From Marinomonas sp. UCMA 3892 (GTDB lineage Bacteria > Pseudomonadota > Gammaproteobacteria > Pseudomonadales > Marinomonadaceae): a DNA stretch of 64,000 nucleotides. Shown in pieces: positions 31-24,804 of this stretch. The first letter of the stretch is position 1, and the number at the start of each line of letters is the position of its first letter. A model generated the notes under the pieces. The model was not told where the DNA came from. It ran no database searches and saw nothing but the letters and a program-made list of their open reading frames with translations. The stretch lies in assembly GCF_012726345.1 (NCBI RefSeq), contig NZ_PTXN01000005.1, positions 62,001-126,000 on the forward strand. The letters run 5' to 3'. The position numbers and the translations under genes were made by a program.

Positions 31-2181
31 TTAACGTTTAGCGTGAGCGGTAAACAGAACCGTTTCCCCCTCATCAAACTGGCATTGGTCACTGGCCGAG
101 ATCCCCCGAAGCAGCTGTCCGGCTGGAATGCCATGCTCCTTGGCGACTTGACGTAAGGTTTGAATCGTGACGCGAATACCATCGGCACTATGATCCACGT
201 CTGGGTAATCGCCATCGGTCAGTAAGATGGGCAAATCTTTCACAAAATTAACCATCTGTTGCCGCTGTGCGTGTTTGGGGTCTGTACTTGAGTTCGCATT
301 GGGCGCAATCGGCGTTTGCTTGCGCTCAGCTCTTGTGGCGAGCTCTTTTGCTTGGGCACTGGTTGTCTCAGTTCGACTCGGACGCTGTGAAGCCTCTTTG
401 TTCTGAATTGCTGCCACTGATTCTTCGTCTTGTTTGGAGATGTCTATCAGTGCAGTAAGCCCCTTAGAAATCGATACTTTCAGTAGTAACCCTTGCTCCT
501 GAACGCCATCCTTCGTAGTCACAGTTCTGGCCTTACGTGTCGGGTTTGCGGGATCTAGTTCAAGCCAATCTAATCGACTGAGTTCAGCAAGTAGTTTTCG
601 GGGGGCACACCAAGGTCTTACGGCATCGGGATAGCGGATCAGGGCTTGCTCACCAACCATAATCAACGCACTGCTGGCCTCTGGGAGCCACGCCAAAGAT
701 TCAGGGAGATTCAATGAATCTGCATCGTACTGGTTTACGTTATTTGAGATAGCGCCATCATATGAATTGTTAGGCTTTTCACATCCATCACCCGGAACGT
801 TTTCAGTTGCCTGGTGGTTATTAACATCACTAGCAAGACGAAGTTCATCATCTTGGTCGGACGGTTTTGTTGATGGCGACTGTGCCGAATTGCTATGTTC
901 GATTGATGATGACGCTTCAGGCAAGTCTGGATGCTCACTGGAACGACTCTGAGGTTCTGCTTGTGTTTGCTGTGTTGCTTCCCACTCAGATTTGCTAAAC
1001 AGTGTCACGCTACTTGGTACATTCGAGCTGAACAATAAATCGGCCTCAGATATATGCAGCATGGGTAACCAGATTGGCTTGTCGTCTTTGATCAGCACTT
1101 CAGGGGCAAGGCTTTCATATCGCTCATTTGAGGCTGATTTTGTGGCCAATCCCCGCTCAATGAGGATGTCCGCAAGGGTATCGGGATCTCTTGGAATGCC
1201 AGGTATCTTGTCTTTGGCCAATAGCTCAATGATGTCCTTAGCCGCGCTTTTCCAAACCAGGTAAAGATGGGTTGATTGATTGGATTTTTGTACCCAGACT
1301 CTGGCGTCTCGCTGATTAACTAACCACTGAGAACTGGCAAGCAATCGCCTCATGGCATCAAGTAGATAGCGTTCGACTGGGACACCAAGGGCGTTGTCGT
1401 CAACGGAAATTCGTTGAGCTTTCAGGTCTCGCTGGACACTGGTTTGGTCAGCTTCAATGACCAGTTTAGACAGGACATGCTCGGGATCGGTATTGCCAAT
1501 TGCTTCTAGCATGGCTTGCAAAATCTCTGGGCCCGGCTGGGTTAACCAGGCGAGCAACTCAGGTGTCATCACCCGGTTTAACACCAGAATTGAAAATTGC
1601 TCGTGCCGCTTGCACCGTCCGTCGCGCCAGCGAATAAAATAGCGTTCAATGCTGTTATTTGTGGTCCATTGAGATAAGGTTTCTAAAAAAGGGTTCCACT
1701 GATAGCGTCCATCTTCGTCAGTGATAGACAAGTCTGAAACGGGCTTACCAATATCATGGAACAAACCGCCTAATGCCGCCGCAACACGCCACCTTGGCTC
1801 TAGCTCTTTTTTCTCAACCGGTGTGCCACTGGCAACAAAGATGATCCCTTCAGCTGCTTGTGCCGCCCAGAAAGCAACTTCCAAAGAATGACGTAATAAA
1901 CCACCAGCGCCACTGTGATGATGATGCTCAGAAGCTGGCAACAAATGAACATAAGCAGCCAGATGATCAATGCAGGGCTGAATCAGCTTTTGAAAATCAC
2001 GCTGGTTGAAGCCAAGTACCTGGCGCAGTTTGGCAATTAGCTCGTCTTGTGTGGACTGCAATTCCTCGGGTGACGCAGCAGGCAACCCCTTCAGAAATGG
2101 CGGATAGCGTGGAATGTCTGCATCCAGTTGAGATGACAGCTCTGGTATTGCTTTGGCTTGAAAAAATAGTTTTTTGAACAT
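31..2181 (-). CDS. traI: MobH-family conjugative relaxase TraI (SXT/R391 type)
   Basis: Relaxase that nicks oriT and pilots the single strand during ICE transfer. The 716-residue protein has the MobH signature near the N-terminus: a four-histidine run at residues 86-89, H98, and an HD pair at H142-D143. This is the HD-hydrolase-like fold of the TraI_2 domain. A long low-complexity, Ser/Gln-rich linker (about residues 400-480) precedes the C-terminal TraI_2_C-like domain. The length matches my recollection of SXT TraI (716 aa). The ATG at 2181 has a strong GGAGG six bases upstream. The coupling-protein gene traD would be expected immediately to the left, outside the window. The CBASS operon upstream on the same strand ends 117 bases before the start. 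Seen: motifs, size, context. Inferred: activity on the oriT region near 21.1-21.4 kb. Confidence 0.93.
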   Translation of the reverse strand: MFKKLFFQAKAIPELSSQLDADIPRYPPFLKGLPAASPEELQSTQDELIAKLRQVLGFNQRDFQKLIQPCIDHLAAYVHLLPASEHHHHSGAGGLLRHSLEVAFWAAQAAEGIIFVASGTPVEKKELEPRWRVAAALGGLFHDIGKPVSDLSITDEDGRYQWNPFLETLSQWTTNNSIERYFIRWRDGRCKRHEQFSILVLNRVMTPELLAWLTQPGPEILQAMLEAIGNTDPEHVLSKLVIEADQTSVQRDLKAQRISVDDNALGVPVERYLLDAMRRLLASSQWLVNQRDARVWVQKSNQSTHLYLVWKSAAKDIIELLAKDKIPGIPRDPDTLADILIERGLATKSASNERYESLAPEVLIKDDKPIWLPMLHISEADLLFSSNVPSSVTLFSKSEWEATQQTQAEPQSRSSEHPDLPEASSSIEHSNSAQSPSTKPSDQDDELRLASDVNNHQATENVPGDGCEKPNNSYDGAISNNVNQYDADSLNLPESLAWLPEASSALIMVGEQALIRYPDAVRPWCAPRKLLAELSRLDWLELDPANPTRKARTVTTKDGVQEQGLLLKVSISKGLTALIDISKQDEESVAAIQNKEASQRPSRTETTSAQAKELATRAERKQTPIAPNANSSTDPKHAQRQQMVNFVKDLPILLTDGDYPDVDHSADGIRVTIQTLRQVAKEHGIPAGQLLRGISASDQCQFDEGETVLFTAHAKR

Positions 2182-2298: not shown

Positions 2299-3012
2299 CT
2301 AAGGCGTATTTCTACTTGGCCTTTTAGTTTTTTTTCCAACTCTCCTTTTGGGTTTTTCAATCGGTGTAAAAGCTTCTTGTAGGTGATCGCGAAACCATCG
2401 GCGTCGCTCAACTTGGCGAAACTCGTTCAAGACAAACCGATAGTCACACGAGCCAAGACGATCACCACAACCACATGGACACGGTAATTTATTTGCCTCA
2501 CGCTTGCGCAAACCTAACGCTTTCAGTGCCCGTAGAACTGATGCTTTACCATTGACATTGAACAACTGAGAATAATCATCAATCAGGCCTTTCTCACCAT
2601 GGTCCAGTTCGCCATAGGGAAAGTTGCCAAATTCAACCCTATGGGACACCGAATAAAGAAACCTGACAACAATCTTTTCGAAAAAGGTTGTCAATGACGA
2701 GTCGGTTTTCAAAATTGACTTAATTTTCAGGTCTGAGCCAAGACAAAATGATCCATCAGAGTAAGTATGGAAGTCCTGATTACGAGGAAAGTAACCAGCG
2801 GTATCAAACACCACTGGTAAAGCCCTAGGATAATTACTTGGGCATATAATCCTTAGAGAAAATGTTCGCTCTATAAACCGACTTCCAGCTAGCTGTGCTT
2901 TTAACAGATACTCTCCCTGCAACTCAACCTTATCTGCATGGACATCTACCAATCTAATGTTCGGATAGGCCGAGAGAAAAGCCTCTAGGCCTACAGCCTT
3001 CCAGTGCTTCAT
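2299..3012 (-). CDS. E2-like (ubiquitin-conjugating-fold) CBASS protein
   Basis: Prokaryotic E2-superfamily protein of 237 residues. The core (about residues 30-125) has the E2 pattern of a Y-P proline, H82 and the presumed catalytic cysteine C90 in the sequence DGSFCLG, comparable to the His-Pro-Asn and G-x-I-C-L segment of eukaryotic E2s. A C-terminal cluster, C178-C180-C182-C189, looks like a small zinc-binding knuckle, followed by a very basic tail. It starts directly after the CD-NTase stop (TAG-ATG), so it is translationally coupled. No E1 or JAB peptidase gene is nearby, which makes this the E2-only, short type II arrangement of CBASS. In such systems E2 is reported to modify and prime the CD-NTase; that role here is inferred from family and position. 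Confidence 0.85.
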   Translation of the reverse strand: MKHWKAVGLEAFLSAYPNIRLVDVHADKVELQGEYLLKAQLAGSRFIERTFSLRIICPSNYPRALPVVFDTAGYFPRNQDFHTYSDGSFCLGSDLKIKSILKTDSSLTTFFEKIVVRFLYSVSHRVEFGNFPYGELDHGEKGLIDDYSQLFNVNGKASVLRALKALGLRKREANKLPCPCGCGDRLGSCDYRFVLNEFRQVERRRWFRDHLQEAFTPIEKPKRRVGKKTKRPSRNTP

Positions 3013-4203
3013 CTATTGCTTAAACCATGGCTTTGGATCAGATGATTGAATTGCGAAAGTTGGTTTTGCTGTCACCGCAGGAATCCCCAAGAGACGTGCT
3101 ACCGAACTTGAATCAAGCTTCAGATCCAAACCATTTTGCGCCGCATTTACTATTCGTTGCGTATCATCACTTGAGCAAAGAGCACTAAAATCAGCTCTAG
3201 CTTGATACAGCCATTTATAAAAGTTTTCTTGTAATCGGTATTGAGCAGATTTTTCGTCATACCACTTGTCTGCAAAATCTTCGGCTGGGTTAACTGGGTT
3301 CGGAATCATTGGCGCTTGTGCAGAAATATGGTCATCCATCTCGGAGAGCACCGTATTCAACGCTGAAGCCAAATCACTTTCACCTTTATATGATTTAGCT
3401 GCCAATGTAGTGATGATTACCGATATTGGCTTACTATCCTCATTGTTTTTGAACATAGTGTCACGATGACGCTTCAATAATTGGATCACCTGTTGTAAGG
3501 GTGTCTTCCATTGATAATATGGCAGACTATCTATACTGGCTTTAAATCGCATTTCACGTTCGTTTATTACTAACCGTGCCGTCTTCATGCGCGTTTCAAA
3601 CCATCGAGCATATCCTTCAGGATTGCTGATACGCCAATTTTCATCCACAACTGCATAAGTGGAATCTGTGTTGTCGGTAATCGAAACTGCAAGCTGAGAC
3701 ACGTTTTGAGCCAAGTTTTCATCAAACTTAGAGTTTTCGACCATCCGCTTTTTCAACAGTCCTCTTCCTGTATCACTCTCTGGCACACACGGAACTATGT
3801 CCATGTGAAAGCTAAGCCCATCGGCATACTCTAAGCGCCAACAACGTTTCTTCTCGGCTAGCTCTTCCTTAATGCCTCTGGCGTTTCGATAAAGCTCTAA
3901 TTCATGACCGACTAGGTGCTTTAGTTGCTTTTGAGTGATAGACGTTTTATCCAGGCCACGCCGAAGATTGCACCCCATATCTAGGTCATACTGTTCTTCT
4001 GAATCGGGCCTAATCGCCGTACCTAGACGAAAGGAACCTTGAGAAAACACGTGGGGATCAAAATTCACGCATGTTGACTCTGGGCGATGTAACCAATCAC
4101 CTAGATCCTTATAGCGTTTTTCAGCCTTTTCATAAGCACTGTCTGGTAGCTCAATTTTTTCCAGAATTGTGTTTAGAACGTCGTTACTTTTAGTATTACT
4201 CAT
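3013..4203 (-). CDS. CD-NTase (cyclic oligonucleotide synthase) of CBASS
   Basis: Cyclic GMP-AMP synthase-like nucleotidyltransferase, 396 residues. On phage infection, members of this family make a cyclic di- or trinucleotide that activates an effector. The catalytic set is complete: G-S-x-x-L-G-T at residues 56-62, D73-x-D75 in YDLDMG, and a third acidic residue D135 in HMDIVP. The ATG at 4203 overlaps the effector gene's last eight bases (ATGAGTAA), and the E2-like gene follows without a gap, so the three are one coupled unit. The C-terminus is Pro-Trp-Phe-Lys-Gln and does not end in glycine. The product nucleotide and the clade cannot be assigned by eye. Confidence 0.9.
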   Translation of the reverse strand: MSNTKSNDVLNTILEKIELPDSAYEKAEKRYKDLGDWLHRPESTCVNFDPHVFSQGSFRLGTAIRPDSEEQYDLDMGCNLRRGLDKTSITQKQLKHLVGHELELYRNARGIKEELAEKKRCWRLEYADGLSFHMDIVPCVPESDTGRGLLKKRMVENSKFDENLAQNVSQLAVSITDNTDSTYAVVDENWRISNPEGYARWFETRMKTARLVINEREMRFKASIDSLPYYQWKTPLQQVIQLLKRHRDTMFKNNEDSKPISVIITTLAAKSYKGESDLASALNTVLSEMDDHISAQAPMIPNPVNPAEDFADKWYDEKSAQYRLQENFYKWLYQARADFSALCSSDDTQRIVNAAQNGLDLKLDSSSVARLLGIPAVTAKPTFAIQSSDPKPWFKQ

Positions 4204-5350
4204 GTAGATCTCCTCGAAGCTCGACTGCCATTACGAATTGTTGTGTTTTTATGTCGTGGTCATAAATAAGCCATGGCATATCAGCCTTAGGCATTCTGGC
4301 CCGTCCTAATTCGACGGCACACGATACTGGCATCACAGGAAAAATTTGCAGTGGCGTGGCAGCCCCGTGTGTATTTTTGATTTCAACAATCAGCTTTCTT
4401 ATGCACTTTCTGAACAAGGAGAGCTGCTGCTTTGACTGCATGAAATCATTATGAGGCTGCTTGATAGTCACTTCCCAAATCGATGTATCTGGCCCTAGAA
4501 CCCCAGTAATTCGCTCATGCGACACATGGTCACTCAAAGAAAGTAGCAGGGCTGGCTTTCCCTCCATATTTTGAGGTCTGTTGATGATGTACTCAAAATC
4601 ATCTGAACAGTCTTGCCAAAACCAGCCTTTAGGCTCTCGATGCAGCTGATAAGTCTCAACCTCAATTTTGTCGGTAAGCAAAGCGCCAAGTTTTATTAAC
4701 AATGGTTGAGGAGCTAACGCGAACAATGAAAAATGCTTACAAGAATCTTCTTCGATGATCGATGAAATTTTACTTTGAAAACGCTTCGTTAGGTGTTGCG
4801 ACTCTGCTTGCCAATATTGTTCAGAGTGATCCTTCAGCTCTGATACCATGGATAGGGTCACTGGCTTTTCAGTTGCCGGATACCAATTCGGAAACATTGC
4901 CTCAACACAACCGTGATAATTAATCGGTGATCTTTCAGTTCCAATATTGGCACCATATAAAACAACATTTGATTTGCGATCAGGAGCAATGCCTGTGAGG
5001 ATTTCTATACGTTGCTCATGCTGCATTTTCCAACTAATCAAGAGGTCGGCTGGATACCTATCTTCGCTGCCTTTCTGGTCAATTTTTTTGTGACAGTCAT
5101 AGCACAGCAACATGAGGTTGCTGACGTCATTCAAACTGGTTGGCTTAGTTTTAAAGAGTCCCCAACCACGAGGCCCATTCTCAGAAAATGCGTAAATATG
5201 AGCATTTTGAGAGACATTGACCGATTCCTGAGTCACCGCTGATTTGTATAGCAATTTATTACACCCGCTAAACTGACAACGAGCAGCGGCACGAGCCCAA
5301 AGTTCTCGCTCAACTTTACGGTCTATGGGTCTTGTGACTTTAGCGACCAT
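4196..5350 (-). CDS. cap5: HNH-SAVED effector nuclease (Cap5-like)
   Basis: CBASS effector that degrades double-stranded DNA when a SAVED domain binds the cyclic nucleotide made by the neighbouring CD-NTase. The N-terminal HNH/zinc domain shows C25-C30, the A-H51-I catalytic histidine, N78, and C83-x2-C86-H87. Residues about 150-384 form the SAVED region, recognised mainly by the SLSDH and Ile/Val-rich strand pattern plus context. The start at 5350 has GGAG seven bases upstream. Length (384) is normal for Cap5. The 3' end overlaps the CD-NTase gene. The domain call is from motifs and synteny; nucleotide specificity is unknown. Confidence 0.88.
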   Translation of the reverse strand: MVAKVTRPIDRKVERELWARAAARCQFSGCNKLLYKSAVTQESVNVSQNAHIYAFSENGPRGWGLFKTKPTSLNDVSNLMLLCYDCHKKIDQKGSEDRYPADLLISWKMQHEQRIEILTGIAPDRKSNVVLYGANIGTERSPINYHGCVEAMFPNWYPATEKPVTLSMVSELKDHSEQYWQAESQHLTKRFQSKISSIIEEDSCKHFSLFALAPQPLLIKLGALLTDKIEVETYQLHREPKGWFWQDCSDDFEYIINRPQNMEGKPALLLSLSDHVSHERITGVLGPDTSIWEVTIKQPHNDFMQSKQQLSLFRKCIRKLIVEIKNTHGAATPLQIFPVMPVSCAVELGRARMPKADMPWLIYDHDIKTQQFVMAVELRGDLHE

Positions 5351-5728: not shown

Positions 5729-5729
5729 A

Positions 5730-5903
5730 CTATTTCTCCTTCCTGACGCCTTTAAAAGGCGTTTTGTCAGATGTCTTTACATCCATGAATCGACCAGTAT
5801 CAGCATCTCGCTTTACCCAATGTCCGCTTGGCGTCTGAGTCTGAGATCTACCTTTAACGGCACCGTTTCTGTGTCCGTCACCTGATGGGGGATTTGTAGC
5901 CAT
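5730..5903 (-). CDS. Small basic protein heading the CBASS operon
   Basis: Predicted 57-residue protein rich in Gly, Lys, Arg and Thr. It has the recognisable phrase NWVKRDADTGRF-like (here HWVKRDADTGRFMDVK) typical of small uncharacterised proteins with a toxin/antitoxin or phage flavour. I prefer the ATG at 5903 over a longer form starting at 5933 because GGAGG lies five bases before it. The stop lies one base ahead of the TTG of the next gene. No transmembrane segment or known catalytic motif is visible, and the lack of hydrophobic core suggests a disordered or nucleic-acid-binding peptide. No function is assigned. Confidence 0.65.
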   Translation of the reverse strand: MATNPPSGDGHRNGAVKGRSQTQTPSGHWVKRDADTGRFMDVKTSDKTPFKGVRKEK

Positions 5904-5950
5904 AAAGCCTCCTATTCTGCTTAACTTAATCACATTTATCAGATATTAAT

Positions 5951-5971
5951 AAAAAAGATCCAAAGGATCTG
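5951..5971 (-). terminator. Rho-independent terminator after the restriction/STAS operon
   Basis: On the minus strand AGATCC-ttt-GGATCT is followed by six T residues. It lies between the STAS-like gene (ends 6032) and the CBASS operon (starts 5903). This suggests the two defence modules are separate transcripts and that a CBASS promoter lies in the short interval 5904-5950. Confidence 0.75.
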
Positions 5972-6031
5972 ATCAAATAATAAACTTATATTCTGATTAA
6001 CGCAAGCAGATTAACCAGAAAACCAAAAAAA

Positions 6032-6583
6032 CTACACAATTGATCGGTAGACAAATTCCAGTCCACCTGACTCTGCCACTTCTTTTTGACCTAACACAAG
6101 ACCTGTAGCATGAAGCTTCTTTAATCGACCACTGGCATTCTGTGCTGAAATGTCAAAGTGCTTAGATACATGTGACGAAGTCACTGTCTTTTTTGCAATA
6201 ACAAAATCTAGAAGCTCTTTGACAGTCGCACTGAGTTTTACACCAAGCACTTCGTAACCGCTATCGCTCTTGACTAGAAGAGGTTGATCCTTGGCTGTAG
6301 CGCCATAAGACCAATTATCCAGAAGGTCACGACTCGGTACATTAGAAAGGTAAAAACCTTTTTCTCCTTTCAATGCTTTAGCCAACGAGATTACACTTTC
6401 ACGAGGAAAAGAAGCATCAGTGAATCGAATGCCTTCCAAGCTGATAGCAAAAATATCGCATGATGGGTGACCATCAACGATCTTTTTAATCTTCACATAG
6501 GCTTCACTACCTTCATCGTTACCAAAGGCATGGTCAGAACCTACGACTTCTGAAAGAAGAATTTTATGAGTTAACTGTTTCAT
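6032..6583 (-). CDS. STAS-like (DUF4325-type) protein with C-terminal winged helix
   Basis: 183 residues in two parts. Residues about 25-105 resemble the STAS-like DUF4325 domain (pattern [17 protein letters not shown] followed by a Leu-Ala helix), a fold shared with anti-sigma-factor antagonists. Residues about 118-168 form a winged helix-turn-helix ([20 protein letters not shown], then a hinge and wing), suggesting DNA binding. It follows the GHKL ATPase gene by 22 bases on the same strand and is the last gene before a terminator. By analogy with SpoIIAB/SpoIIAA-like partner switches, the ATPase may control or phosphorylate this protein; that is inference. Its start has only a weak ribosome-binding site, consistent with coupled translation. 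Confidence 0.7.
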
Positions 6584-6605
6584 CTGCTTAAGTTGACACT
6601 ATTTA

Positions 6606-7691
6606 TCAGAAATTGTCAACATAGAAGTCAAAACAGATGTGGGTTCCTGTGATAGGGACCAACCCTCGATCTTCAGAAACATTGATAAGTTGTCCCTTCG
6701 AGTATTCCAAAGCCAATGAGAAAGTTAGCTGCCTAATAACAATGATAACTTTCTCTTTGCTAGCGTGCTCTCGACTACTCTTAAAGCCTAGCCCCCGGCC
6801 TTTACCAAAGCGACTAACCTCACCAGATGTAAATGCTTTTTGAACGAGCGCAATGTCATTCTCAACACTTTCCGCTGAAAACTGTGCGTACAACTTCGGA
6901 TGTTCACTTTGTAACGTTGTTCTCAAGGTAGCGGCAATACCTAAACCAGAGTCGGATATGACTGTTTGAATATGCTTTGGTTTATTATACGGTCGATACA
7001 CTTGCAGACCTGCTAGTCCAGGTATTTTGGATTCACTGTGATCAGTAACGTTGCCTACAAGCTCTGAAAAAACAGTCTTAGCCGCTAAGAAATAGCTAAC
7101 TGAAGAATGCTCTACAAACCTGTCGCCCAAACGAATTACAAGCTCCTTGTTTTGGGTTGGCTGTGCAATTTCTCCTAGTTCGACCAAGGTATCGCTATTA
7201 TCCCGATAAGTTTTAGCAGCTGACAAAACGGGCCTTTCAGGAAGACAAGTGACACTTTGATTAAGATAATCAAAGAAGCCATTTCTGCTGAAAAAACTGT
7301 GAGTATTAGGACATGCTGTAGTATCCATCACCACATCTTTACCATTCGCAGTAAGCTGATTCGCGAGAGCAAGAAAACGGGCCAATGCTATCAGCAAAAA
7401 CTTACAATCGATGCCGAATCTAAATGTTATCTTGTTTGCATCTTTTTGATACGCAAGCTTACCGATAGCACTCTCAAAGGCTTTATCATCAATCCAACCT
7501 GTAGCGAAATCAATTTCCACATGCTGAGCCCGTATCAAGCACCATTCATGATTTGAATTTTTCACAAACGTATCCTGGTTTTTGTGAAGAAACGAGTTCA
7601 CTTGAGACTTATCCAGTCCCAGCTCCTTGGCAATTTGACGTCCTTTCAGGCCTGGTGACCCATTTAACAACTCTGAGACTGCCTTCAGCAA
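6606..7691 (-). CDS. GHKL-type ATPase with N-terminal HTH, downstream of hsdR
   Basis: 361 residues. Residues 1-45 form a small helix-turn-helix (GRQIAKELGLDKSQVNSFL). Residues about 85-150 look like a degenerate STAS-like segment. The C-terminal half is a GHKL/HATPase domain: N-box ELVGNVTDHS with E210 and N214, G1 box D247-S-G-L-G, and glycine-rich lid GKGRGLGF at 297-304. The start is TTG at 7691, chosen because AGGAG lies seven bases upstream; the nearby ATG is out of frame. It begins 22 bases after the hsdR stop, so it belongs to the restriction operon. No histidine-kinase phospho-acceptor domain is seen. It may act like an anti-sigma-type kinase with the next gene; function not established. 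Confidence 0.75.
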   Translation of the reverse strand: MLKAVSELLNGSPGLKGRQIAKELGLDKSQVNSFLHKNQDTFVKNSNHEWCLIRAQHVEIDFATGWIDDKAFESAIGKLAYQKDANKITFRFGIDCKFLLIALARFLALANQLTANGKDVVMDTTACPNTHSFFSRNGFFDYLNQSVTCLPERPVLSAAKTYRDNSDTLVELGEIAQPTQNKELVIRLGDRFVEHSSVSYFLAAKTVFSELVGNVTDHSESKIPGLAGLQVYRPYNKPKHIQTVISDSGLGIAATLRTTLQSEHPKLYAQFSAESVENDIALVQKAFTSGEVSRFGKGRGLGFKSSREHASKEKVIIVIRQLTFSLALEYSKGQLINVSEDRGLVPITGTHICFDFYVDNF

Positions 7692-7713
7692 ACCATCACT
7701 CCTTTCTTCCTAC

Positions 7714-10700
7714 CTACATACCTACCATTCGTTGCATACTTTGCGTCCACGACGCTTTAAATGCTGAATCTCCTGCGAACAACTTGTAGAGCTCAAGTTC
7801 ATCTTTACGGCGTTGCAGCATAATTTCCTTGAGCATTTTTTCGAAAGCCAAATCTCGATTATGAGGATCTGGGTTGTTTTTGTATTTAGATTCGAAATCT
7901 GGGTGATTGCGGATACTCTCAGCGATGTTCACAAACTTAACTTTTTGCTCTTCAGGTGTGGCACTCCAGCCCTGGAACCATCGCTCATTAAATGTGCGAA
8001 TGATTTCATCCAGCGGGTCAGTTTCTTTTTCACCGCCATGCGCCCCACGTGGGTTCGGATTTTGAGGATCAAGCTCCGCTTCTTGGTCACTAAGTTTAAT
8101 GCTGTGGTTAAGCTTCACACGTTGCAAACCGTATGAACTCAGATCGACAGAATCAAGAAGCTCATCAATAGCATCTGCATCAGGATCTTCCACTTTCAAT
8201 TTCGGTATTAAAAACTTCAGGAACCAAAACAGTTTTTCCCAGCTGACCATTTCATAAGGCATGATAGAAGCCATCTGCCCATAGATTTTAACGAACTGTT
8301 TGGCTTTAATCTTAAAGTCCACTTTAGCTTCAGCTTCAAGCTCCAGCTCATGGTCGAACCGGGCTGCTGCAACATCAATGATTGGGCTGAGTGTTTGGGC
8401 GTCTTCATTCTTGAAATAACGCGTCACAAAGTCTTCAACCTCATACCACTCGTACACACCGACATCGTCCATTTCATCTTTCAACTCGTGCAGTACGTTT
8501 ATATCTGTAGCTTGGGACAATGAAGTTGCTGTGTAGAAAGGATCGAATGCTGACTGAATATCTTCAACCGAGTTGAAAAAATCTAAAACAAACAAGTCTT
8601 CAGTTTTTTTACCCCATTTTGGCGCACTTCGATTGAGACGAGATAATGTCTGTACACACAAGACACTGGCGAGCTTCTTGTCCACATACATGGCGCAAAG
8701 CTTAGGCTGGTCAAAGCCTGTCAGATACTTGTTCGCAACCACTAAAAGTCGATACTCATCGGTATCAAACATATCTTTGGTATCTGACTCGGCAAAACCA
8801 TTAATATCCGCTTCGGTATATTCAATACCGTCAACTTCTTTGATTCCTGAGAAAGCAATGGCAACTTTAAACGGGTTTCCTTGCTCCTCAAGTATCCGCC
8901 TAATCGCTTTGTAGTATCGAATGGCCGTCTCAATATTTTGAGTGACCACCATTCCCTTACCTTTACCTTTGAGCTTTTTCGCATTCACGACATGTGGAAC
9001 AAAATGCTCCAGCATAATCTCTGCCTTGGTATCAATCGTTTGCTGGCTTCGCTCTACATAAGCTCTGAGTTTTTTCTGCGCCTTTTTGGTATCAAACTCA
9101 GGGTTATCAGCGATTGATTTCTCAATCTCATAATAACTTTTGTACGTCGTATAATTTGCCAGCACATCCAAGATGAAGCCTTCTTCAATGGCTTGTTTCA
9201 TCGAATACAAGTGAAACGGCTTGAAAGAGCCATCTTCTTGGCGTTGACCAAATTTCTCCAAAGTGCTGTTTTTTGGTGTCGCTGTAAATGCCAGATACGA
9301 TGCATTCCCGCGCATCTTGCGCGATTTCATCGCCTGAAGGATTTTATCCTGAGCATCTTCTGCCTCTTCGATTTCAGACTTGCCCATCGCTCGGTTCATA
9401 TTGTCATGCGCCGAACCAGACTGTGAGCTGTGTGCTTCATCGATGATCACCGCAAAGCGCTTGTCACTAAGATCGGCGATACCATCAATAATGAACGGGA
9501 ATTTCTGAATCGTCGTTATAATGATCTTTTTGCCATTCTCCAGCGCCTGCTTAAGCTCAGATGACTTGTTCGCCGGGGCAATAATGTTCTTTACTTCAGA
9601 AAACTCTTTAATGTTATCCCGCAGCTGCTTGTCCAATAGGCGTCTATCGGTGACCACAATCACAGAGTCAAACAACGGCTGCTCCAGGCTTTTTCCACCG
9701 GCCACATCAGACGATGCAGGATAGGTTTCAATTAACTGATAAGCAGCCCAGGTAATCGAATTAGACTTACCTGACCCGGCAGAGTGTTGAATTAAGTAAG
9801 TCTGACCGACACCGTGCTGGGCGGCATGGTCTACCAATTTTCTCACCACATCCAATTGGTGGTATCGAGGAAAGAATAAGGTTCGCTTTGGTAATGGATC
9901 TTTGCTTGACCCATCCAGACGCACAAAATGCTGAATAATATTCGCCAAGCTTTCTTTAGTGAATACTTCTTGCCATAGGTATGCCGTTTTATGGCCAGTT
10001 GGGTTAGGTGGATTACCCTGTCCAAGATTGTGTCCTTTATTGAACGGCAAGAAGAAGGTACTGCCACCTGATAACTTGGTGGTCATATACACTTCGTCGG
10101 TATCGACCGCCATATGCACTAGGCAGCGGCCAAAGGTCAGCAAGGCTTGCGTTGCATCTCGATCATCTCGATACTGCTTTTGGCCGTGATAACGTGCTGT
10201 TTGCCCCGTCCATGCGTTCTTCAACTCCAGCGTTATCAATGGTATTCCGTTGATAAACAATACCATGTCGATTTCTTGTAGGGGATTTGCCATGGAATAG
10301 CGCACTTGGCGAGTACAACTAAACACATTGTCTGCAAAGTTTTGCTTTACCTTCTCACTACTGCTCGCCAAAGGGGCTGGATAGAGCAAATTGAAATGAG
10401 CATCGTCTACGCTTAGCCCTTTCTTAAGTAAATGCAGAATGCCATGCTTCTTAATCAGTCGGTCAAATCGTTCAAGTAACTTACGCTGCCAATCTGAGGG
10501 GTTGTTCTTTTGCAGTTTGGCCAACTCTTCTTCTTGTGTCTTTTGCAGAAACTGCCAGAAAAAACGCTCATCAATGGCATATTGCATATTAAAGTCACTA
10601 GCAGCACCAATGAAGTATCCAGCACCCAGTGACTGCTGACTCAGCCCCTCTTTGAGCTCTTCAGTACTGATCCCAGCCAGACATTTCTCAATGGCCGACT

Positions 10701-10731
10701 CTAATGCTTGTTCATTGGTTTGACTGACCAT
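7714..10731 (-). CDS. hsdR: Type I restriction endonuclease subunit R
   Basis: Motor and nuclease subunit of a type I restriction-modification enzyme, 1005 residues, normal length. The N-terminal nuclease domain has the PD-(D/E)xK arrangement D155 ... E169-L-K171 (strand ITLELKN). The helicase motor follows with Walker A SAGSGKSNS at 317-325 and a DEAH box at 431-434 (IIDEAHSSQSG). A later LSRLNR segment fits motif VI. It translocates DNA and cleaves unmodified invading DNA together with HsdM and HsdS. The start has AAGGGA about nine bases upstream. It is separated from hsdS by the DUF4268 gene. All catalytic motifs look intact. Confidence 0.95.
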   Translation of the reverse strand: MVSQTNEQALESAIEKCLAGISTEELKEGLSQQSLGAGYFIGAASDFNMQYAIDERFFWQFLQKTQEEELAKLQKNNPSDWQRKLLERFDRLIKKHGILHLLKKGLSVDDAHFNLLYPAPLASSSEKVKQNFADNVFSCTRQVRYSMANPLQEIDMVLFINGIPLITLELKNAWTGQTARYHGQKQYRDDRDATQALLTFGRCLVHMAVDTDEVYMTTKLSGGSTFFLPFNKGHNLGQGNPPNPTGHKTAYLWQEVFTKESLANIIQHFVRLDGSSKDPLPKRTLFFPRYHQLDVVRKLVDHAAQHGVGQTYLIQHSAGSGKSNSITWAAYQLIETYPASSDVAGGKSLEQPLFDSVIVVTDRRLLDKQLRDNIKEFSEVKNIIAPANKSSELKQALENGKKIIITTIQKFPFIIDGIADLSDKRFAVIIDEAHSSQSGSAHDNMNRAMGKSEIEEAEDAQDKILQAMKSRKMRGNASYLAFTATPKNSTLEKFGQRQEDGSFKPFHLYSMKQAIEEGFILDVLANYTTYKSYYEIEKSIADNPEFDTKKAQKKLRAYVERSQQTIDTKAEIMLEHFVPHVVNAKKLKGKGKGMVVTQNIETAIRYYKAIRRILEEQGNPFKVAIAFSGIKEVDGIEYTEADINGFAESDTKDMFDTDEYRLLVVANKYLTGFDQPKLCAMYVDKKLASVLCVQTLSRLNRSAPKWGKKTEDLFVLDFFNSVEDIQSAFDPFYTATSLSQATDINVLHELKDEMDDVGVYEWYEVEDFVTRYFKNEDAQTLSPIIDVAAARFDHELELEAEAKVDFKIKAKQFVKIYGQMASIMPYEMVSWEKLFWFLKFLIPKLKVEDPDADAIDELLDSVDLSSYGLQRVKLNHSIKLSDQEAELDPQNPNPRGAHGGEKETDPLDEIIRTFNERWFQGWSATPEEQKVKFVNIAESIRNHPDFESKYKNNPDPHNRDLAFEKMLKEIMLQRRKDELELYKLFAGDSAFKASWTQSMQRMVGM

Positions 10732-10745
10732 AATTGTAAGTTCCC

Positions 10746-11909
10746 TTAATCAAAATTCTTCTGTTTCATTGCCTCAGCCGCTTTTTGCAGCGGTCCTTTC
10801 AAGGCTTTTTCTAACTTTGTCATCTGCTCTAAGTGCCACGCAACCGCTTGGGGCCAAGTCTCTTTGTTAAACCCATCAGCTTTGGTCGAAAACTGGATAC
10901 GGCAAGATTTCTTCTCATCCAGTCTCATCCACTCAAGTTCTGCACCAAAAGTATGCTCAATGTCTTGTTTGGACTGACTCAACAAATCAAAAAGGTATTT
11001 ATTCTCTTCGGTAACCCCACGGCTGATCCAAAGCTCTACTCGAAGCTCTTTTTGCAGAAATATCAGGTTATACGGACACCCACTTAGCCCTGAGCCTGCT
11101 GATAACCAATGATCTTTGCTTGGGCTAATATTGTTATAGAGTTGGCAAGAGCTTTTCTGAAACGCCTCTAAGGCACGCTCCCAGTACTCGCGACGCACGG
11201 TATGGCGGTTTTTTAGTACCACTTCGGTGGTTTTTTCTTCCGCTTCCTTAGCATTAATACCGATCATCAACTCTTTCGCTTCTGGCGTTGGGATGATCTG
11301 GTCAATATTAATCAGTAGCTGTTCACCCAGTGAATAAGGAGTGATTTTGAAGCAGGCAATGCTAATGCCTTGACCCAATAACCATAGCGCTGTGCTGGTC
11401 ACTTCCTTGCGAAAGTTTGCCGCAACCAACATAATGCGCTGGCTGTTACCCAGGTTGAGTTTTAACTCATCGAGATCGGGCGCATCCAAAAACTCACATA
11501 TTCTCGCCGAAGCACTTGAAGGGGTATTTAACAGGTCAACCTCTCCTGCTACAGGCTCATAGCGGTCTAAGTACTGCTGGTAAATTTCAACTATTTGCGC
11601 TTTGGTTAAACTTGCACAGTACGAGGCATATTTAAGCGCCTGCCACACCACATCTCGGCCACTGTCGTCCAGCTTGTTTTCAATAATGACCAAGTTGCCA
11701 TCTTTATCCAGTGCCAGTAAATCTAGGCGTTCACGGGTATCATCAAAGCCATCAAACTCCTTTTGAATAATCAGTAGCTCTTCACCCAGTGCGGAAGGCT
11801 CGTGTGCCAACCATTCCTGAAGATGCTTGCGCTCTGTAAAGCCCAACTCACTGAACTTCTTTGTCCTAACAGGACTGATTCTGTTGGTTTGATGATTTAC
11901 CGTGAACAT
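10746..11909 (-). CDS. PD-(D/E)XK nuclease-like protein with DUF4268 C-terminus
   Basis: 387 residues. The N-terminal half has a NucS/RecB-like nuclease core: D63 in RLDLLALD, then E77-N-K79 in LVIIENKLD, and Q90 in the following QALKYA helix. The C-terminal part (about 235-385) matches the DUF4268 pattern seen in proteins next to restriction systems (REYWERALEAF at its beginning and a late Trp-rich helix). It sits between hsdS (9 bases away) and hsdR (14 bases away) in the same operon. It is probably an accessory nuclease or substrate-selection factor of the type I system; the exact role is unknown. Start ATG at 11909 has AGGACG upstream. Confidence 0.8.
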   Translation of the reverse strand: MFTVNHQTNRISPVRTKKFSELGFTERKHLQEWLAHEPSALGEELLIIQKEFDGFDDTRERLDLLALDKDGNLVIIENKLDDSGRDVVWQALKYASYCASLTKAQIVEIYQQYLDRYEPVAGEVDLLNTPSSASARICEFLDAPDLDELKLNLGNSQRIMLVAANFRKEVTSTALWLLGQGISIACFKITPYSLGEQLLINIDQIIPTPEAKELMIGINAKEAEEKTTEVVLKNRHTVRREYWERALEAFQKSSCQLYNNISPSKDHWLSAGSGLSGCPYNLIFLQKELRVELWISRGVTEENKYLFDLLSQSKQDIEHTFGAELEWMRLDEKKSCRIQFSTKADGFNKETWPQAVAWHLEQMTKLEKALKGPLQKAAEAMKQKNFD

Positions 11910-11918
11910 AATCGCGTC

Positions 11919-13208
11919 CTATTGCTCAATCATTTCTGGGGTGATTTTTATTTTCCCTGTCACGGCGCTGTTGATCAGGGAGGTTTTGTATTCTTTGAGC
12001 TTTTCGATTTGTGCAAATAGCAACTCAATGCCTTCATCAGAAGACTTCATAAAAGCGCTGACGTAGTTAGCTATTTCTTTTTGCTCTTCAATGGGCGGAA
12101 TAAACAAGTCAACCTTTGAAAAGTTGTCAAAATTTAGGTCTTGACCATCTCTAATGAAACTTGCTGTCTGCTGCAAAGCTGCGATGTAAGAGGGTAGCTT
12201 TAATAAATACCCATAGAAAGAAGGATCAATTTCATCTAATGCTCTCAGGACTACATAGGAGGACCGGATACATCCTTGCGACCAGGCACGCTCTAAGCCG
12301 CCTTGGAAACTTCTCATGCTGATTACAAAGTCGTCCTTTTCGACGTGCTTTCTTTTATCTAAATGAAACTGAATTTTGACAACGCGTTTACCCGTTAACT
12401 CTTCATACTGGTCTTGCGGTATAACACCATAAGCTTGAGTTGCAGAAAGCTGTACGTCATCTTTCCAAGCCCGCTCTTTTCTTTGAGTAAATACAAACTT
12501 GCTACGACGGACTTCCCAATGCGCTGGAACCTTACCAATCCAATCCACACCGGAGTCTTTCATTGGCACATTGGGGTCAAGCCCTTGGGTCACCGCCTGT
12601 TGGATGATGATCTGCTTACGCTCTTTAAGCAGGCTAATTTGCTGTTCTTTGATAGCTATAGCTTCGTCTACTTGTGCTGTTTTCTTTTCGAGGTAGTTGG
12701 CAATAAGGGATTGTTCTTCTAGAGGTGGAAATACCAGCAAGCTATTCGCAATATGGTTAAAACTAATTGTTTGTCGTACCCCTGAACCCAATAGCTTCAT
12801 GTAAGCAACATCGTATCTGTGCAAAAGATATTTGAAATACTGCTTTTGCAGTTCTTCCTTTTCTTTAATGACGATATATCCTGCACTAACAACCACATCG
12901 ATTTCTGAAAGAGCAATTCTCAAACTAATCAAGTCGTAATTTAGATTTAACGGATTTATTAAAAACTCACCAGATAATACCTCCTGATAAGAGGCTTTAG
13001 TGCTCAGTAATATCTTTTCATCATCTTTTGTAACAACTTTTCCAAAACTAATAGCACCGCTATTCAAGCTCATATTTGGCCGATGCTTCTTTTCATAAAA
13101 GAGATGCTTTAACTTTCTAATATCCCAGTGTTCCGGTACATCACCAATCCAGCCCTCGGTAGAGTCCTTGTAAGTTTGATATTTAGGCATTTCAGCAATA
13201 TTTATCAT
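11919..13208 (-). CDS. hsdS: Type I restriction-modification specificity subunit S
   Basis: DNA-recognition subunit of 429 residues with two target-recognition domains. Each repeat begins with the familiar pattern W-I-G-x-V-P-x-H-W (DVPEHWDIRKLK near residue 23 and KVPAHWEVRRSK near 227). Each ends in a conserved helix (IANYLEKKTAQVDEAI near 172-188, and a second at the C-terminus). It recognises a bipartite sequence that cannot be predicted by eye. The ATG at 13208 has AGGGG about nine bases upstream; an internal ATG seven codons later is a less likely alternative. It follows hsdM by six bases. Confidence 0.94.
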   Translation of the reverse strand: MINIAEMPKYQTYKDSTEGWIGDVPEHWDIRKLKHLFYEKKHRPNMSLNSGAISFGKVVTKDDEKILLSTKASYQEVLSGEFLINPLNLNYDLISLRIALSEIDVVVSAGYIVIKEKEELQKQYFKYLLHRYDVAYMKLLGSGVRQTISFNHIANSLLVFPPLEEQSLIANYLEKKTAQVDEAIAIKEQQISLLKERKQIIIQQAVTQGLDPNVPMKDSGVDWIGKVPAHWEVRRSKFVFTQRKERAWKDDVQLSATQAYGVIPQDQYEELTGKRVVKIQFHLDKRKHVEKDDFVISMRSFQGGLERAWSQGCIRSSYVVLRALDEIDPSFYGYLLKLPSYIAALQQTASFIRDGQDLNFDNFSKVDLFIPPIEEQKEIANYVSAFMKSSDEGIELLFAQIEKLKEYKTSLINSAVTGKIKITPEMIEQ

Positions 13209-13214: not shown

Positions 13215-15638
13215 TTACCCCTGAACCTTTTCTACTGCGACGCCCAATATCTGCGCAATAAGACCTTCGGCTTTTTGTTCTAGGTTGATAATATCGGTTG
13301 CGACCTCCTCTAAACTACGCAGCGGTTTATGACGGTAGAAATACTTATTGAAGCTGATTTCATAGCCAATTTTTACCGTATCTAGGTTTATCCATGCTTC
13401 ATCAACATGAGGCTTCACTTCGTCTAGGAAGTACAGGTAAATGCTTTGCTTCAGTGGGACAGATTCTGTGTCACGCAGGTCTGAGTTGGTCTCGTAAGTA
13501 ATGAACTCGCCTTTTTTGCCGCCTTCTGTTGTAGGAACGGGGTAATAACCAAAATCTGGCAGGTCAGCGACTTCACACTCATAGCGCTCCAGCAGGTCGT
13601 TTAATTTATCACCCGTTAATTTAACGATCTTTTTCACCACTTTCTTGGCGGTTTCGTCATACCAGCTCACCGCGTTCAGGATGGCATTTTTCTCAGGTGC
13701 TGAAAGCTTAATAGCATGGGCTTTTAGCGATTTATCAACTTGGGTTTTAAAACTATTGAAGTCATCAAATTCAATGCTACCGATGTCAGCCATCAGCGTT
13801 TCTGCCGTTTCAAGCAATGCTTTAAGCGCCAGCCAATGTTTCACATCGAGCAGTTTTGCTTTAGCTTTGGCATTGAGACTGATGTCGTTATCTTCACACC
13901 AAGAAAGAATGTCTTTCTCAATGGATTTCAAGAAGCTCTTTTTCTTTTCAGTACCATAGCCAGTTTTTTCGTAAACACGTTCGCCGTGCTCTGCGTACAC
14001 GTACTCCATCACTTCACTAAGCTGCTTATCAAAACGCAGTGGGGCTATTGCGTCTTGAGTGAACTTGGCTCTTCGGCGGTCTGGGCGCTCGATAGTGACT
14101 TTGTAATAGCCAAAGTCGTCATTGCTAAACACTTTGCTGGCTATGCCAACAGGATCATTGTTTGCATCAAGTGCTCTTTCAACGCCCACACACGCGAGGT
14201 AAGTATCGGTAATTTCCGTGATGTGCGCAGGCGCAAATTCGCAGTTTTTGTTACCTAAGTTCTTACGCAACTTACGGTATAGCAAGCTAGCATCAATCAG
14301 TTGCACCTTACCTTTACGTGCCTCGGGTTTATTGTTGTTCAACACCCAAATGTAAGTGGTAATGCCGGTGTTATAGAACAGGTTATTAGGTAACTGAACG
14401 ATGGCATCTAGCATGTCGTTTTCAATGATGAAGCGACGAATGTTACTTTCGCCACCGCCCGCATCACCGGTAAAGAGCGATGAGCCATTATGAACAGAAG
14501 CAATCCGGCTGCCTAATGGGCTTACGCTTGGATCTTTCATCTTGTTGACCATTTCCATTAAGAAGAGCAGCTGGCCATCACTTGAACGTGGCGTGGCATC
14601 CACCACTTCGAGATTTCCCCAATAGTCTTTCAGGCTAACCTTAAAACGCGGGTCAATCACATCACTGCCGTCTTTAATGTGCTTCTGTTCAGACGCCCAA
14701 CTCTTACCATATGGCGGGTTAGACAACATAAAGTCAAAGCGTGAAGCCGCGAACTCATCGGTAGACAAGGTTGAGCCTACTTTGATGTTCTCAGGGTTGT
14801 TGCCTTTGATCATCATGTCCGATTTACAAATCGCGTAGGTCTCGTCGTTGATCTCTTTGCCGTAAAGGTAAACATCACGGCTGTCGTTAGGGTATTTCTC
14901 TTCAATGAAGTTTTGAGATTCAGTCAACATACCACCACTACCACACGCAGGATCATATACTGTCATGGTAAGCGGCAACTGGTCTTTCACAGGGTCAAAC
15001 ACCAGGTGCGTCATCAGTTCAATAACTTCACGTGGCGTAAAGTGTTCGCCTGCTTCTTCATTGTTTTCTTCGTTGAACTTGCGGATCAACTCTTCGAACA
15101 CATAACCCATACCCAGGTTAGTAAGGGCTGGCATCTTGTTGCCATCCGGGTCTTCGACCGTTTCATGAGTTAAATTGATGTAAGGGGAAACAAACTTTTC
15201 GACGACATCAAGAAGGACTTGCTTTGAGGCCATGTGACGAATTTGCGATTTAAGGTTAAAGCATTCAATGATCTCTTTAACATTATCGCTAAAGCCAAGC
15301 AGGTACTCTTCAAAGTTGGCGAGTAATATCTGTTGGTTATTTGTTGCGGTGTTGAATAGGGATTTCAGCGTCCATTTAGATGTATTGTAAAAGACATAGC
15401 CACTGGCCGCCTTCAATGGTTCATCATCAAGCTCCGTGGCTTGCATCTCTTCTTTTTGGAACTTTACCTCTTCAAGCACCGCTTCTTTGGTGGGTTCAAG
15501 TAACGTATCTAAACGTCGTAATACCACCATAGGTAAAATCACATCACGGTACTTACCGCGAACGTACACATCCCGTAAACAGTCGTCGGCAATATTCCAA
15601 ATAAATGAGATGAGCTTGTTATGTACACTATGATCCAT
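13215..15638 (-). CDS. hsdM: Type I restriction-modification methyltransferase subunit M
   Basis: N6-adenine methyltransferase subunit, 807 residues. The N-terminal HsdM helical domain is followed by SAM motif I DPACGSGG (229-236) and catalytic motif NPPY (307-310). The protein is longer than the common about 500-residue HsdM because of a C-terminal extension (about 540-807) with a helical linker and a tail rich in Leu/Glu, as in the larger N6_Mtase subfamily. The start at 15638 has AGGAAAAG upstream. It is the first structural gene of the operon, 113 bases downstream of the WYL regulator. A short perfect palindrome, GTTGC-t-GCAAC, lies in that gap near 15674-15684. Confidence 0.95.
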   Translation of the reverse strand: MDHSVHNKLISFIWNIADDCLRDVYVRGKYRDVILPMVVLRRLDTLLEPTKEAVLEEVKFQKEEMQATELDDEPLKAASGYVFYNTSKWTLKSLFNTATNNQQILLANFEEYLLGFSDNVKEIIECFNLKSQIRHMASKQVLLDVVEKFVSPYINLTHETVEDPDGNKMPALTNLGMGYVFEELIRKFNEENNEEAGEHFTPREVIELMTHLVFDPVKDQLPLTMTVYDPACGSGGMLTESQNFIEEKYPNDSRDVYLYGKEINDETYAICKSDMMIKGNNPENIKVGSTLSTDEFAASRFDFMLSNPPYGKSWASEQKHIKDGSDVIDPRFKVSLKDYWGNLEVVDATPRSSDGQLLFLMEMVNKMKDPSVSPLGSRIASVHNGSSLFTGDAGGGESNIRRFIIENDMLDAIVQLPNNLFYNTGITTYIWVLNNNKPEARKGKVQLIDASLLYRKLRKNLGNKNCEFAPAHITEITDTYLACVGVERALDANNDPVGIASKVFSNDDFGYYKVTIERPDRRRAKFTQDAIAPLRFDKQLSEVMEYVYAEHGERVYEKTGYGTEKKKSFLKSIEKDILSWCEDNDISLNAKAKAKLLDVKHWLALKALLETAETLMADIGSIEFDDFNSFKTQVDKSLKAHAIKLSAPEKNAILNAVSWYDETAKKVVKKIVKLTGDKLNDLLERYECEVADLPDFGYYPVPTTEGGKKGEFITYETNSDLRDTESVPLKQSIYLYFLDEVKPHVDEAWINLDTVKIGYEISFNKYFYRHKPLRSLEEVATDIINLEQKAEGLIAQILGVAVEKVQG

Positions 15639-15751: not shown

Positions 15752-16675
15752 TTAACTTGTTCTACCCGGCGCAATACTTAAGTTTGTGACACCATAAAGA
15801 GCCTGGCTGTTACGCAACCAAAGCTGATACTCAAAGCCCATTAATGAGTGTTCCGTAGAACAATCCACATGCCATTGGCGTAGCAAATAGCCAGCGGTTG
15901 CTGCTCTAATCTCAACCTTTAGAACGCCACCCGTCATGCCATAGTCCAGCTCTATCGCTTCGCTGTGCTCAATACGTGGGTGTGGCACTAACTCAAGCTC
16001 TACAAATCTGTTCCATTGCCGGTCTTGGGTTTCGAGCTCCGTTTCAGACAAAGTGGAATCTTCAAGCACAACCGCAGCTTTAATGCGGGTCAATACAAAG
16101 TCACGGAACTCACCATGCTTGCGGTCAAAACCACGAACATGCCAACGCAGGCCATTGTCCACCAGCGTATGCGGTACAATTTCACGCGTTGTTTCACCGC
16201 TCGATAACGACACATAGGTGATGCTCAAGGCTTTGCCTTTGTTTATGGCCTCGGTGACTTTCGCCACTATCGATAAACTCGGCTTGTTGAGGTGATAAGG
16301 CGCTTCACAAGCAAGGGGTGGTTTTACCTTGCCAGTGAAGCCATCACCGTACCCTTGGCTAATGGTTGCCAGTGTTCTCACAACGTCGTACTCGAACAAT
16401 GGGGCAAAAGCTTCACCACGCTTATGCAATTTGAGCTTTTGGTCATACTCAATGTTGCCTGGTGCAAGCTCTCGGTACATTGTGAAGTCTTTCGTTGCTT
16501 GTGCAGCGGCTATGCTGAAGCGATCGACTAAATCCGCCCGTACCGCTTCTCCCTTAAACAATAAGGTGAAATCGATGTGGGCAATGCGATCCCTGGTTGC
16601 TTGTGGCAACTGCGCTATCTGCGAAAGCCTATCTGACTTCGCCACTACCGTTTGTTTCAGACCATCATTTGTCAT
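15752..16675 (-). CDS. WYL-domain transcriptional regulator (BrxR/CapW-like)
   Basis: 307-residue regulator of the family that controls BREX, CBASS and restriction loci. Residues about 25-95 form a winged HTH (RIAHIDFTLLFKGEAVRADLVDRF). Residues about 125-215 form the WYL ligand-sensing domain (ALSITYVSLSSGETTREIVPHTLVDNGLRWHVRGFD). The C-terminal about 80 residues are the WCX-like dimerisation part. It stands at the head of the hsd operon on the same strand and has inverted repeats upstream (see 16749-16770 and 16807-16853). Probably a repressor released on infection; whether it also controls the CBASS operon is unknown. Confidence 0.85.
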   Translation of the reverse strand: MTNDGLKQTVVAKSDRLSQIAQLPQATRDRIAHIDFTLLFKGEAVRADLVDRFSIAAAQATKDFTMYRELAPGNIEYDQKLKLHKRGEAFAPLFEYDVVRTLATISQGYGDGFTGKVKPPLACEAPYHLNKPSLSIVAKVTEAINKGKALSITYVSLSSGETTREIVPHTLVDNGLRWHVRGFDRKHGEFRDFVLTRIKAAVVLEDSTLSETELETQDRQWNRFVELELVPHPRIEHSEAIELDYGMTGGVLKVEIRAATAGYLLRQWHVDCSTEHSLMGFEYQLWLRNSQALYGVTNLSIAPGRTS

Positions 16676-24711: not shown

Positions 24712-24804
24712 TTAAGCGTTGAAAGGCTGGGCGGCATCAGGGTGAGAAATAATCGCAAAGGTACGTCTATCGCTTACTTCATTAAGAAAATTCTGGTCTG
24801 CCAT
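24712..24804 (-). pseudogene. prfC: Truncated 5' end of prfC (release factor RF3), cut by the ICE
   Basis: From ATG at 24804 the minus strand reads MADQNFLNEVSDRRTFAII then SHPDA, which matches the start of the RF3 GTPase, whose P-loop continues SHPDAGKTT. Here the glycine and the rest of the P-loop are replaced by ICE-derived residues (AQPFNA) and a stop. The native prfC promoter therefore drives only a 30-residue peptide. As in other SXT/R391 insertions, the rest of prfC should be restored at attR with an ICE-supplied start, outside the window. Confidence 0.9.
24734..24755. other. attL junction of the SXT/R391-type ICE
   Basis: The match to chromosomal prfC runs up to about 24734 and then stops inside the codons for the RF3 P-loop. 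The known recombination core of this family lies in this segment of prfC (about 17 bases), so the crossover must be within these bases. The exact core borders need attR or an empty site for comparison. Confidence 0.8.

Follow-up and report, generated by a model that had tools for sequence, protein, structure and literature searches.

A CapK/CapS-type gene pair between exchangeable restriction genes and a CBASS operon in Marinomonas sp. UCMA 3892

CapK and CapS form a two-gene regulatory switch described by Chambers, Rani, Min, Villa and Corbett (EMBO J, June 2026; PMC13373217). There, CapK is a kinase activated by single-stranded DNA (ssDNA), and CapS is a repressor that CapK phosphorylates. 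Activation by ssDNA, phosphorylation, loss of the CapS dimer and de-repression were followed with a reporter and in vitro work for the E. roggenkampii pair. The phospho-acceptor of CapS is S54 in E. roggenkampii and S58 in V. cholerae; the active-site Asn and the ssDNA-stacking Trp of E. roggenkampii CapK are N218 and W68. Besides the V. cholerae CapS, the authors studied WP_001567865.1. CapS recognizes palindromes with a TTAA half-site at a spacing of 1 nt (“narrow”) or 10 nt (“wide”), and a narrow TTAAnTTAA sits between capK and capS in E. roggenkampii. The authors list 443 capK homologues, all with capS as the next gene, and 348 of these pairs lie ahead of a known or predicted immune operon (75 of the 443 ahead of CBASS, 231 ahead of Bub). 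Directly upstream, 88 of the 443 pairs have a restriction-modification (RM) system.

Several other regulators share parts of this design. Chambers et al. draw a parallel with anti-sigma factor kinases and the STAS proteins that antagonize them, i.e., with the logic of SpoIIAB/SpoIIAA, in which a GHKL kinase likewise phosphorylates a serine of a STAS protein; the output of SpoIIAB/SpoIIAA is a sigma factor, whereas that of CapKS is a DNA-bound repressor. The same paper describes VapK and VapS, CapK-like and CapS-like proteins of the VapKSC system, which is proposed to be DNA-damage responsive. VapS has a short C-terminal region and no winged helix, and vapK was sought via CapK homologues without a helix-turn-helix (HTH). 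WYL regulators of the CapW/BrxR type are also DNA-damage-linked repressors adjoining defence operons, as far as PMC13373217 and PMC9122601 describe them, but they consist of one protein, without a kinase.

Here, we describe a pair of this kind from Marinomonas sp. UCMA 3892, found in a stretch of 64,000 nt that we refer to as the window. An earlier note on this DNA had read the two genes as an ATPase and a STAS-like partner embedded in a type I restriction operon, had offered them as a possible immunity add-on to restriction, and knew of no defence role for such a pair. The pair is almost certainly CapK and CapS, a DNA damage switch that most probably represses, and on damage induces, the CBASS operon downstream. 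Both the pair with its mechanism and this setting between RM and CBASS genes are already reported in PMC13373217; the switch is a known one, not a novel type of immunity gene. What the present analysis adds is comparative evidence that the switch moves with its downstream operon, the adjoining RM genes being exchangeable; the remaining interest lies in a predicted operator and in a 57-aa gene.

The pair and its proposed mode of action

The features of the locus are collected in Table 1. The 22-base gap between hsdR and the ATPase gene given by the earlier note is confirmed by the ORF coordinates, and the gap between capK and capS also measures 22 bases. By contrast, the pair is not embedded in the restriction operon, but forms the junction between hsdR and a stretch encoding the 57-aa protein, YdjM and CBASS. 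The gene order is thus that of the published systems (capK, capS, immune operon). The window shares with these both proteins, the key residues, TTAA palindromes and the position behind RM and ahead of CBASS, as reported in PMC13373217.

Table 1. Features of the window discussed in the text (positions in nt)
Feature	Position	Strand	Basis
TraI/MobH relaxase of an integrative and conjugative element (ICE), island border	31..2181	-	NCBIfam MobH E 2.6e-124, Pfam TraI_2
CBASS E2-like protein	2299..3012	-	PADLOC E2 E 4.7e-99
CBASS CD-NTase (DncV-like)	3013..4203	-	family searches
CBASS effector, HNH + SAVED	4196..5350	-	family searches
YdjM-family membrane protein, 122 aa	5360..5728	-	Pfam YdjM E 4.9e-15
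57-aa ORF, PDC-S38	5730..5903	-	PADLOC PDLC05010 E 6.2e-33
Predicted CapS operator 3, just 5' of 57-aa ORF	5916..5943	-	1 mismatch
Predicted CapS operator 2, wide type, with TTAA-N10-TTAA palindrome at 5997-6014	5992..6019	-	0 mismatch
capS: STAS + winged-helix repressor, 183 aa, phospho-acceptor Ser58	6032..6583	-	PDB 9z72/9z73 match
Predicted CapS operator 1, capK/capS junction, TCTGATAAATAGTGTCAACTTAAGCAGA	6583..6610	-	1 mismatch
capK: HTH + STAS-like + GHKL kinase, 361 aa, TTG start	6606..7691	-	ORF list, HATPase_c
hsdR, upstream type I RM	7714..10731	-	family searches
DUF4268 protein (PDC-S11) within RM operon	10746..11909	-	family searches
hsdS	11919..13208	-	family searches
hsdM	13215..15638	-	family searches
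WYL regulator, BrxR family, ahead of hsdM	15752..16675	-	Pfam WYL; best PDB match 7qfz
Tyrosine integrase	22821-24062		

CapK matches Pfam HATPase_c over residues 205-312 (E 3.9e-4, under the curated cut-off). Its ATPase motifs are intact, as the earlier note had it: E210/N214, D247-S-G249 and R299-G300-x-G302, which we take to be the N, G1 and G2 boxes, are the same in all 10 aligned proteins, window included. W66 and N214, equivalent to the published W68 and N218 of E. roggenkampii, are invariant in all 10 aligned CapK proteins. One of these relatives, from Psychromonas (L010, 10001-10074), has an apparent frameshift near residue 27; the kinase part is open, and this open part was used in the residue alignments. 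CapK is 40.5% identical over 98% of its length to the IncHI2 plasmid CapK encoded beside WP_001567865.1. An AlphaFold model of CapK, built with eight close sequences, is of low quality (mean pLDDT 49.5), and the kinase domain did not fold in it; the model has helices and a beta wing at residues 1-52 (pLDDT of ~74-90 in ten-residue blocks over residues 1-60) and beta/alpha repeats at residues 57-123.

CapS is 45.3% identical to the IncHI2 plasmid CapS, WP_001567865.1. A sequence search of the PDB matches it to the engineered S58A variant of V. cholerae CapS (PDB 9z72/9z73), from which it differs, over 181 aligned residues (2-182), at residue 58 only. The DNA-contact residues N145, K151 and G169-G170 are all kept. 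The earlier description of this protein as a DUF4325-like STAS fold with a winged helix stands as to STAS but not as to DUF4325, which Pfam did not return at E<=0.1; the STAS assignment is made because of the solved structures of the same protein and the account in PMC13373217, not Pfam. For the winged helix, Pfam gives MarR_2 at residues 120-163 (E 1.7e-5, slightly under the cut-off). PADLOC matches to the pair proteins (the best being CARF3, E 8e-4, and DrmA, E 3.4e-3) and NCBIfam matches were weak and were set aside. The phospho-serine is present in seven of nine aligned CapS-like proteins, window included; the other two, lone homologues on Acinetobacter plasmids (L022, 12001-12567; L023, 11857-12447), have Cys. 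The genes next to them are annotated as encoding hypothetical proteins; both records are absent from the 40 CapK matches listed out of 41.

If the window copy works as the published CapKS does, which the analogy of residues and gene order suggests, CapS dimers would bind palindromic operators at the capK/capS junction and in the gap between capS and the next gene. Bound CapS would repress capS itself and the downstream operon, to which the 57-aa gene and YdjM would belong together with the genes for HNH-SAVED, CD-NTase and E2. ssDNA arising from DNA damage or repair, e.g., after restriction of phage DNA, would activate CapK, which would phosphorylate CapS at Ser58; the CapS dimer would dissociate, and the CBASS operon would be turned on. 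Restriction would thereby feed a signal to CapK, a link that PMC13373217 also suggests. The pair would be, in short, a known switch that arms CBASS upon DNA damage.

Exchange of the restriction genes and competing readings

The island appears to lie in a mobile element. The TraI/MobH relaxase, a pol V pair (UmuD/UmuC), the integrase and a prfC remnant fit an ICE of the SXT/R391 type. The prfC remnant, beyond the integrase, is a weak match of 22 residues with the prfC start (24727-24792, E 9e-4), and a full prfC is on another contig. Hotspot 5 of such ICEs is described in PMC11580459 as a site of phage-defence systems. It is bordered by s026, which carries COG2378. The best structural match of the WYL protein, 7qfz, is E. 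fergusonii BrxR (PMC9122601). From its place and domain, we infer that the WYL gene is the ICE core gene s026; the island between it and traI looks like hotspot 5. The island thus carries two regulators of the DNA-damage type, WYL and CapKS.

The context of capK was compared across 13 loci that hold capK or part of it, i.e., the 14 loci returned by the search, less L014 and L015, plus a V. gigantis plasmid (L016). L014 and L015 are short Sulfurimonas matches (37-44%) with no other island gene and were left out of the context counts. The genes for YdjM, SAVED and CD-NTase follow the pair in 10 of the 13 loci. TraI follows the E2 gene within the available stretch in only 5 of the 13 (L003-L007); the island is therefore not confined to this ICE. 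One locus (L009) ends with its contig inside capS.

The upstream RM genes are of three kinds. Seven loci (L002, L004, L005, L007, L011, L012 and L016) have window-like genes, with HsdR 86-100% identical. In L003 and L006, HsdR is 29% identical over less than half of its length, and in L008, L009, L010 and L013 it is 22-23% identical. Pfam identifies HsdM, HsdS, AAA_13, RhuM and an EcoR124-type HsdR in L008; in L003, HsdR alone was scanned. For the two divergent kinds, DNA similarity to the window starts at position 7741 (L003, L006), 7694 (L008, L009, L013) or 7676 (L010), at the junction of hsdR and capK, and it returns on the far side, within the WYL gene, in L003, L006, L008 and L010. The BrxR-family WYL gene thus stays in place although the RM genes that separate it from capK change.

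Broken copies of capK occur behind hsdR. The capK match ends at about residue 97 in L012 (3815-4126) and about residue 103 in L013 (10001-10309); a third copy, broken at about residues 26 to 43, is in E. coli H81 (L035), where the stub adjoins insertion-sequence fragments.

Near-identical hsdR is also found apart from the intact pair. At 95-99% identity, hsdR matches 35 of 72,556 plasmid records, and each of the 35 matches covers at least 80% of the gene. The pair also matches 35 plasmid records, of which one covers it and 34 retain 79-131 nt of capK only; the organism tallies of the hsdR-matching and pair-matching records agree. Similarly, hsdR is matched in 58 of 5426 E. coli genomes, in 56 of them over at least 80%, and the pair region is matched in 58 genomes, in none over 80%; among the 20 matches listed, it is the first 153 bases that match. 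Several of the stub-bearing records look near-clonal, and these counts are not counts of independent losses.

More distant pairs lie in other settings. In six plasmid lineages, judged by an annotation that is incomplete for plasmids, RM genes are directly upstream in one (L016). The pair leads into multiubiquitin, E2 or ThiF genes in L017, L018, L020 and L021, with IS elements and two other genes intervening in L020. On a V. atlanticus plasmid (L019), a homologue of the 57-aa protein and genes of unknown function follow the pair, and a type I RM system lies ~4 kb further on, on the other strand. Searching 398 genomes, sampled evenly across the phylum, with a CapK alignment gave 13 CapK matches, source genome included, of which three others are strong: capKS ahead of a ThiF gene (L111), capKS ahead of CD-NTase and patatin genes (L113), and a CapK that lacks the HTH and has no CapS in the ORF call (L112). 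No HsdR match was found in the ~10 kb inspected around these three. A search of 369 genomes of the class with the single CapK sequence returned the source genome and three weak, partial matches, and the alignment found no CapK relative in the viral contigs scanned. Taken together, the swap of RM genes, the capK stubs and the distant contexts lead us to conclude that the pair travels with the genes downstream of it and not with RM.

These data bear most directly on the add-on reading of the earlier note, taken here to mean that the two genes work within the hsd operon to sense or modulate restriction, or to shield the host from its effects. The short gap, the shared strand and the lack of any promoter-like site between hsdR and capK speak in its favour, and transcription from the RM side may well run on into the pair. 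The 88 published pairs directly behind RM systems, as counted in PMC13373217, point the same way; however, linkage follows the downstream genes. Ahead of near-identical capKS stand three divergent kinds of RM operon, so that the constant association with one RM family expected of an RM subunit or accessory is not found. Near-identical hsdR persists with only a stub of capK in the plasmids and E. coli genomes counted above, and distant pairs lack RM in the stretches inspected, the V. atlanticus system being kilobases away in the opposite orientation. We therefore consider a role as an add-on to restriction very improbable.

Two further readings take the pair for another known system, and both were rejected on domain content; we assign either of them a negligible probability, lower than that of the restriction add-on. 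A classical partner switch, with the kinase as an anti-sigma factor and the STAS protein freeing a sigma factor, has the kinase/STAS logic in common with the pair, as the SpoIIAB/SpoIIAA comparison in PMC13373217 makes plain, but this STAS protein has its own winged helix, DNA binding by CapS is published in the same paper, and family searches of the five genes from the pair to traI and the four RM genes gave no sigma-factor match. The earlier idea of a partner-switch module fused to DNA-binding domains and acting in defence was nonetheless right in kind, PMC13373217 drawing the same likeness. A VapKSC-like toxin-antitoxin system, in which the STAS protein would directly restrain a toxin, would account for a GHKL kinase beside a STAS protein, VapK and VapS resembling CapK and CapS. 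VapS, as described in that paper, has no winged helix, however, whereas the window CapS has one and the window CapK has an HTH. There is also no vapC among the ten genes scanned, where the sole PIN match is at chance level (PIN_4, E 0.025, in hsdM). A CapK/CapS switch is the reading that we retain.

Predicted operators and transcription signals

Short TTAA patterns are not enriched in the whole window (4 seen and 2.65 expected; 3 seen and 2.48 expected), and they were rejected as evidence when taken alone. The 303-base gap after capS contains one wide and one narrow site, a combination found in 22 of 20,000 dinucleotide shuffles (wide alone in 385, narrow alone in 447). The narrow site, TTAAGTTAA (5921-5929), lies within predicted operator 3. 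Reading outward from operator 2, one of the three sites, gave an extended 28-bp motif, TCTGnTTAA-N10-TTAAnCAGA. With up to 2 mismatches, this motif occurs three times in the window, source site included, versus 0.03 expected, and at one other place in the 5.03-Mb genome; a reversed control pattern also occurs at one place.

When up to 2 mismatches are allowed, the motif is present at the start of capS in 13 of 15 capKS loci (the exceptions being L018 and L021) and downstream of capS in 13 (the exceptions being L020 and L021). A single close family accounts for ten of these loci, and by lineage the count is four of six in each place. Random pieces of seven of the loci, which can include real sites, matched in 24 of 2000 cases for pieces of 120 nt and in 35 of 2000 for pieces of 251 nt. 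The published wide site of E. roggenkampii has two mismatches to the motif. E. roggenkampii has a narrow TTAAnTTAA at the capS start, as given in PMC13373217, whereas the lineage of the window has there a wide-type 28-bp site with one mismatch; in addition, the window has two further sites ahead of the 57-aa ORF. Neither the window nor any of 10 close relatives has the narrow site in the capK-capS gap, and we do not regard that site as obligatory in all CapKS. The predicted 28-bp operator may be an addition to CapKS as published in PMC13373217. If it holds, CapS regulons would become searchable by sequence.

In a scan of positions 5600-7900, no sigma-70-like promoter was found in the intergenic gaps. 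The region contains two such sites, versus 3.9 in shuffles, and the sole one on the minus strand is inside capK (7226-7197). Between operators 2 and 3, the minus strand has a terminator-like hairpin and T run (5956-5970), which may be the end of the capKS transcript or an attenuator of the next one; the scanned region has four such hairpins, versus 2.0 in shuffles.

The 57-aa gene and its other contexts

The 57-aa gene appears to open the operon that CapS is predicted to control. Our literature search found no occurrence of the name “PDC-S38”, and its best-ranked papers on CBASS, WYL and phage defence made no mention of YdjM. Homologues of PDC-S38 are present in 66 plasmid records from several phyla and in 16 phage records, as well as in 15 of 369 genomes of the class (E<=1e-3) and 13 of 398 genomes of the phylum (E<=1e-8), i.e., 26 genomes in all, two being in both lists.

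The neighbours of PDC-S38 were compared in 20 of these loci and the window, leaving out five weak or partial cases (G226, G361, G250, G095 and G551). By profiles that were built partly from the same loci, and as counts without a matched control, a WYL gene is the neighbour in 9 of the 21, an HTH-M78 peptidase gene in 3 and CapKS in 1 (the window); the remaining 8 showed no regulator of these kinds. Among the genes scanned, Pfam supports WYL in six of the nine cases and HTH with M78 in one of the three. A YdjM-like gene lies close downstream of PDC-S38 in 7 of the 21 loci; Pfam confirms YdjM for three of these, the window being one, and does not do so for the L049/L078 case. A DUF1508 (YegP-like) gene is found there once.

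These contexts raise the possibility, which we put forward tentatively and hold to be rather doubtful, of a conserved damage-inducible cassette (PDC-S38, often YdjM, once a DUF1508/YegP-like gene) that is attached to unrelated damage regulators (CapKS, WYL/BrxR-type, HTH-M78) ahead of different defence genes. In the window, such a cassette would open the operon controlled by CapKS through the three predicted 28-bp operators, and the output shared by these regulators would be the cassette and not the effector. The WYL and CapKS regulators on one ICE might then act as a relay, with restriction first and CBASS second. A 57-aa gene beside otherwise unrelated regulators of the damage type is a concrete, unstudied target.

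Copies on plasmids and phages are more varied. Three plasmid copies lie opposite a WYL gene (L037, L039 and L040). No WYL, HTH-M78 or CapKS regulator was found by the Phocaeicola copy (L038, beside TIR/SIR2 genes) or the Hymenobacter copy (L041, beside arsenic genes). Of three phage copies, two show no regulator with the profiles, although the annotation places repressor genes in the vicinity; the third has a weak HTH-M78 match 1.3 kb off. The protein encoded in the window is 76% identical to the copy on the Phocaeicola plasmid and 84% identical to a copy in a Microcystis phage.
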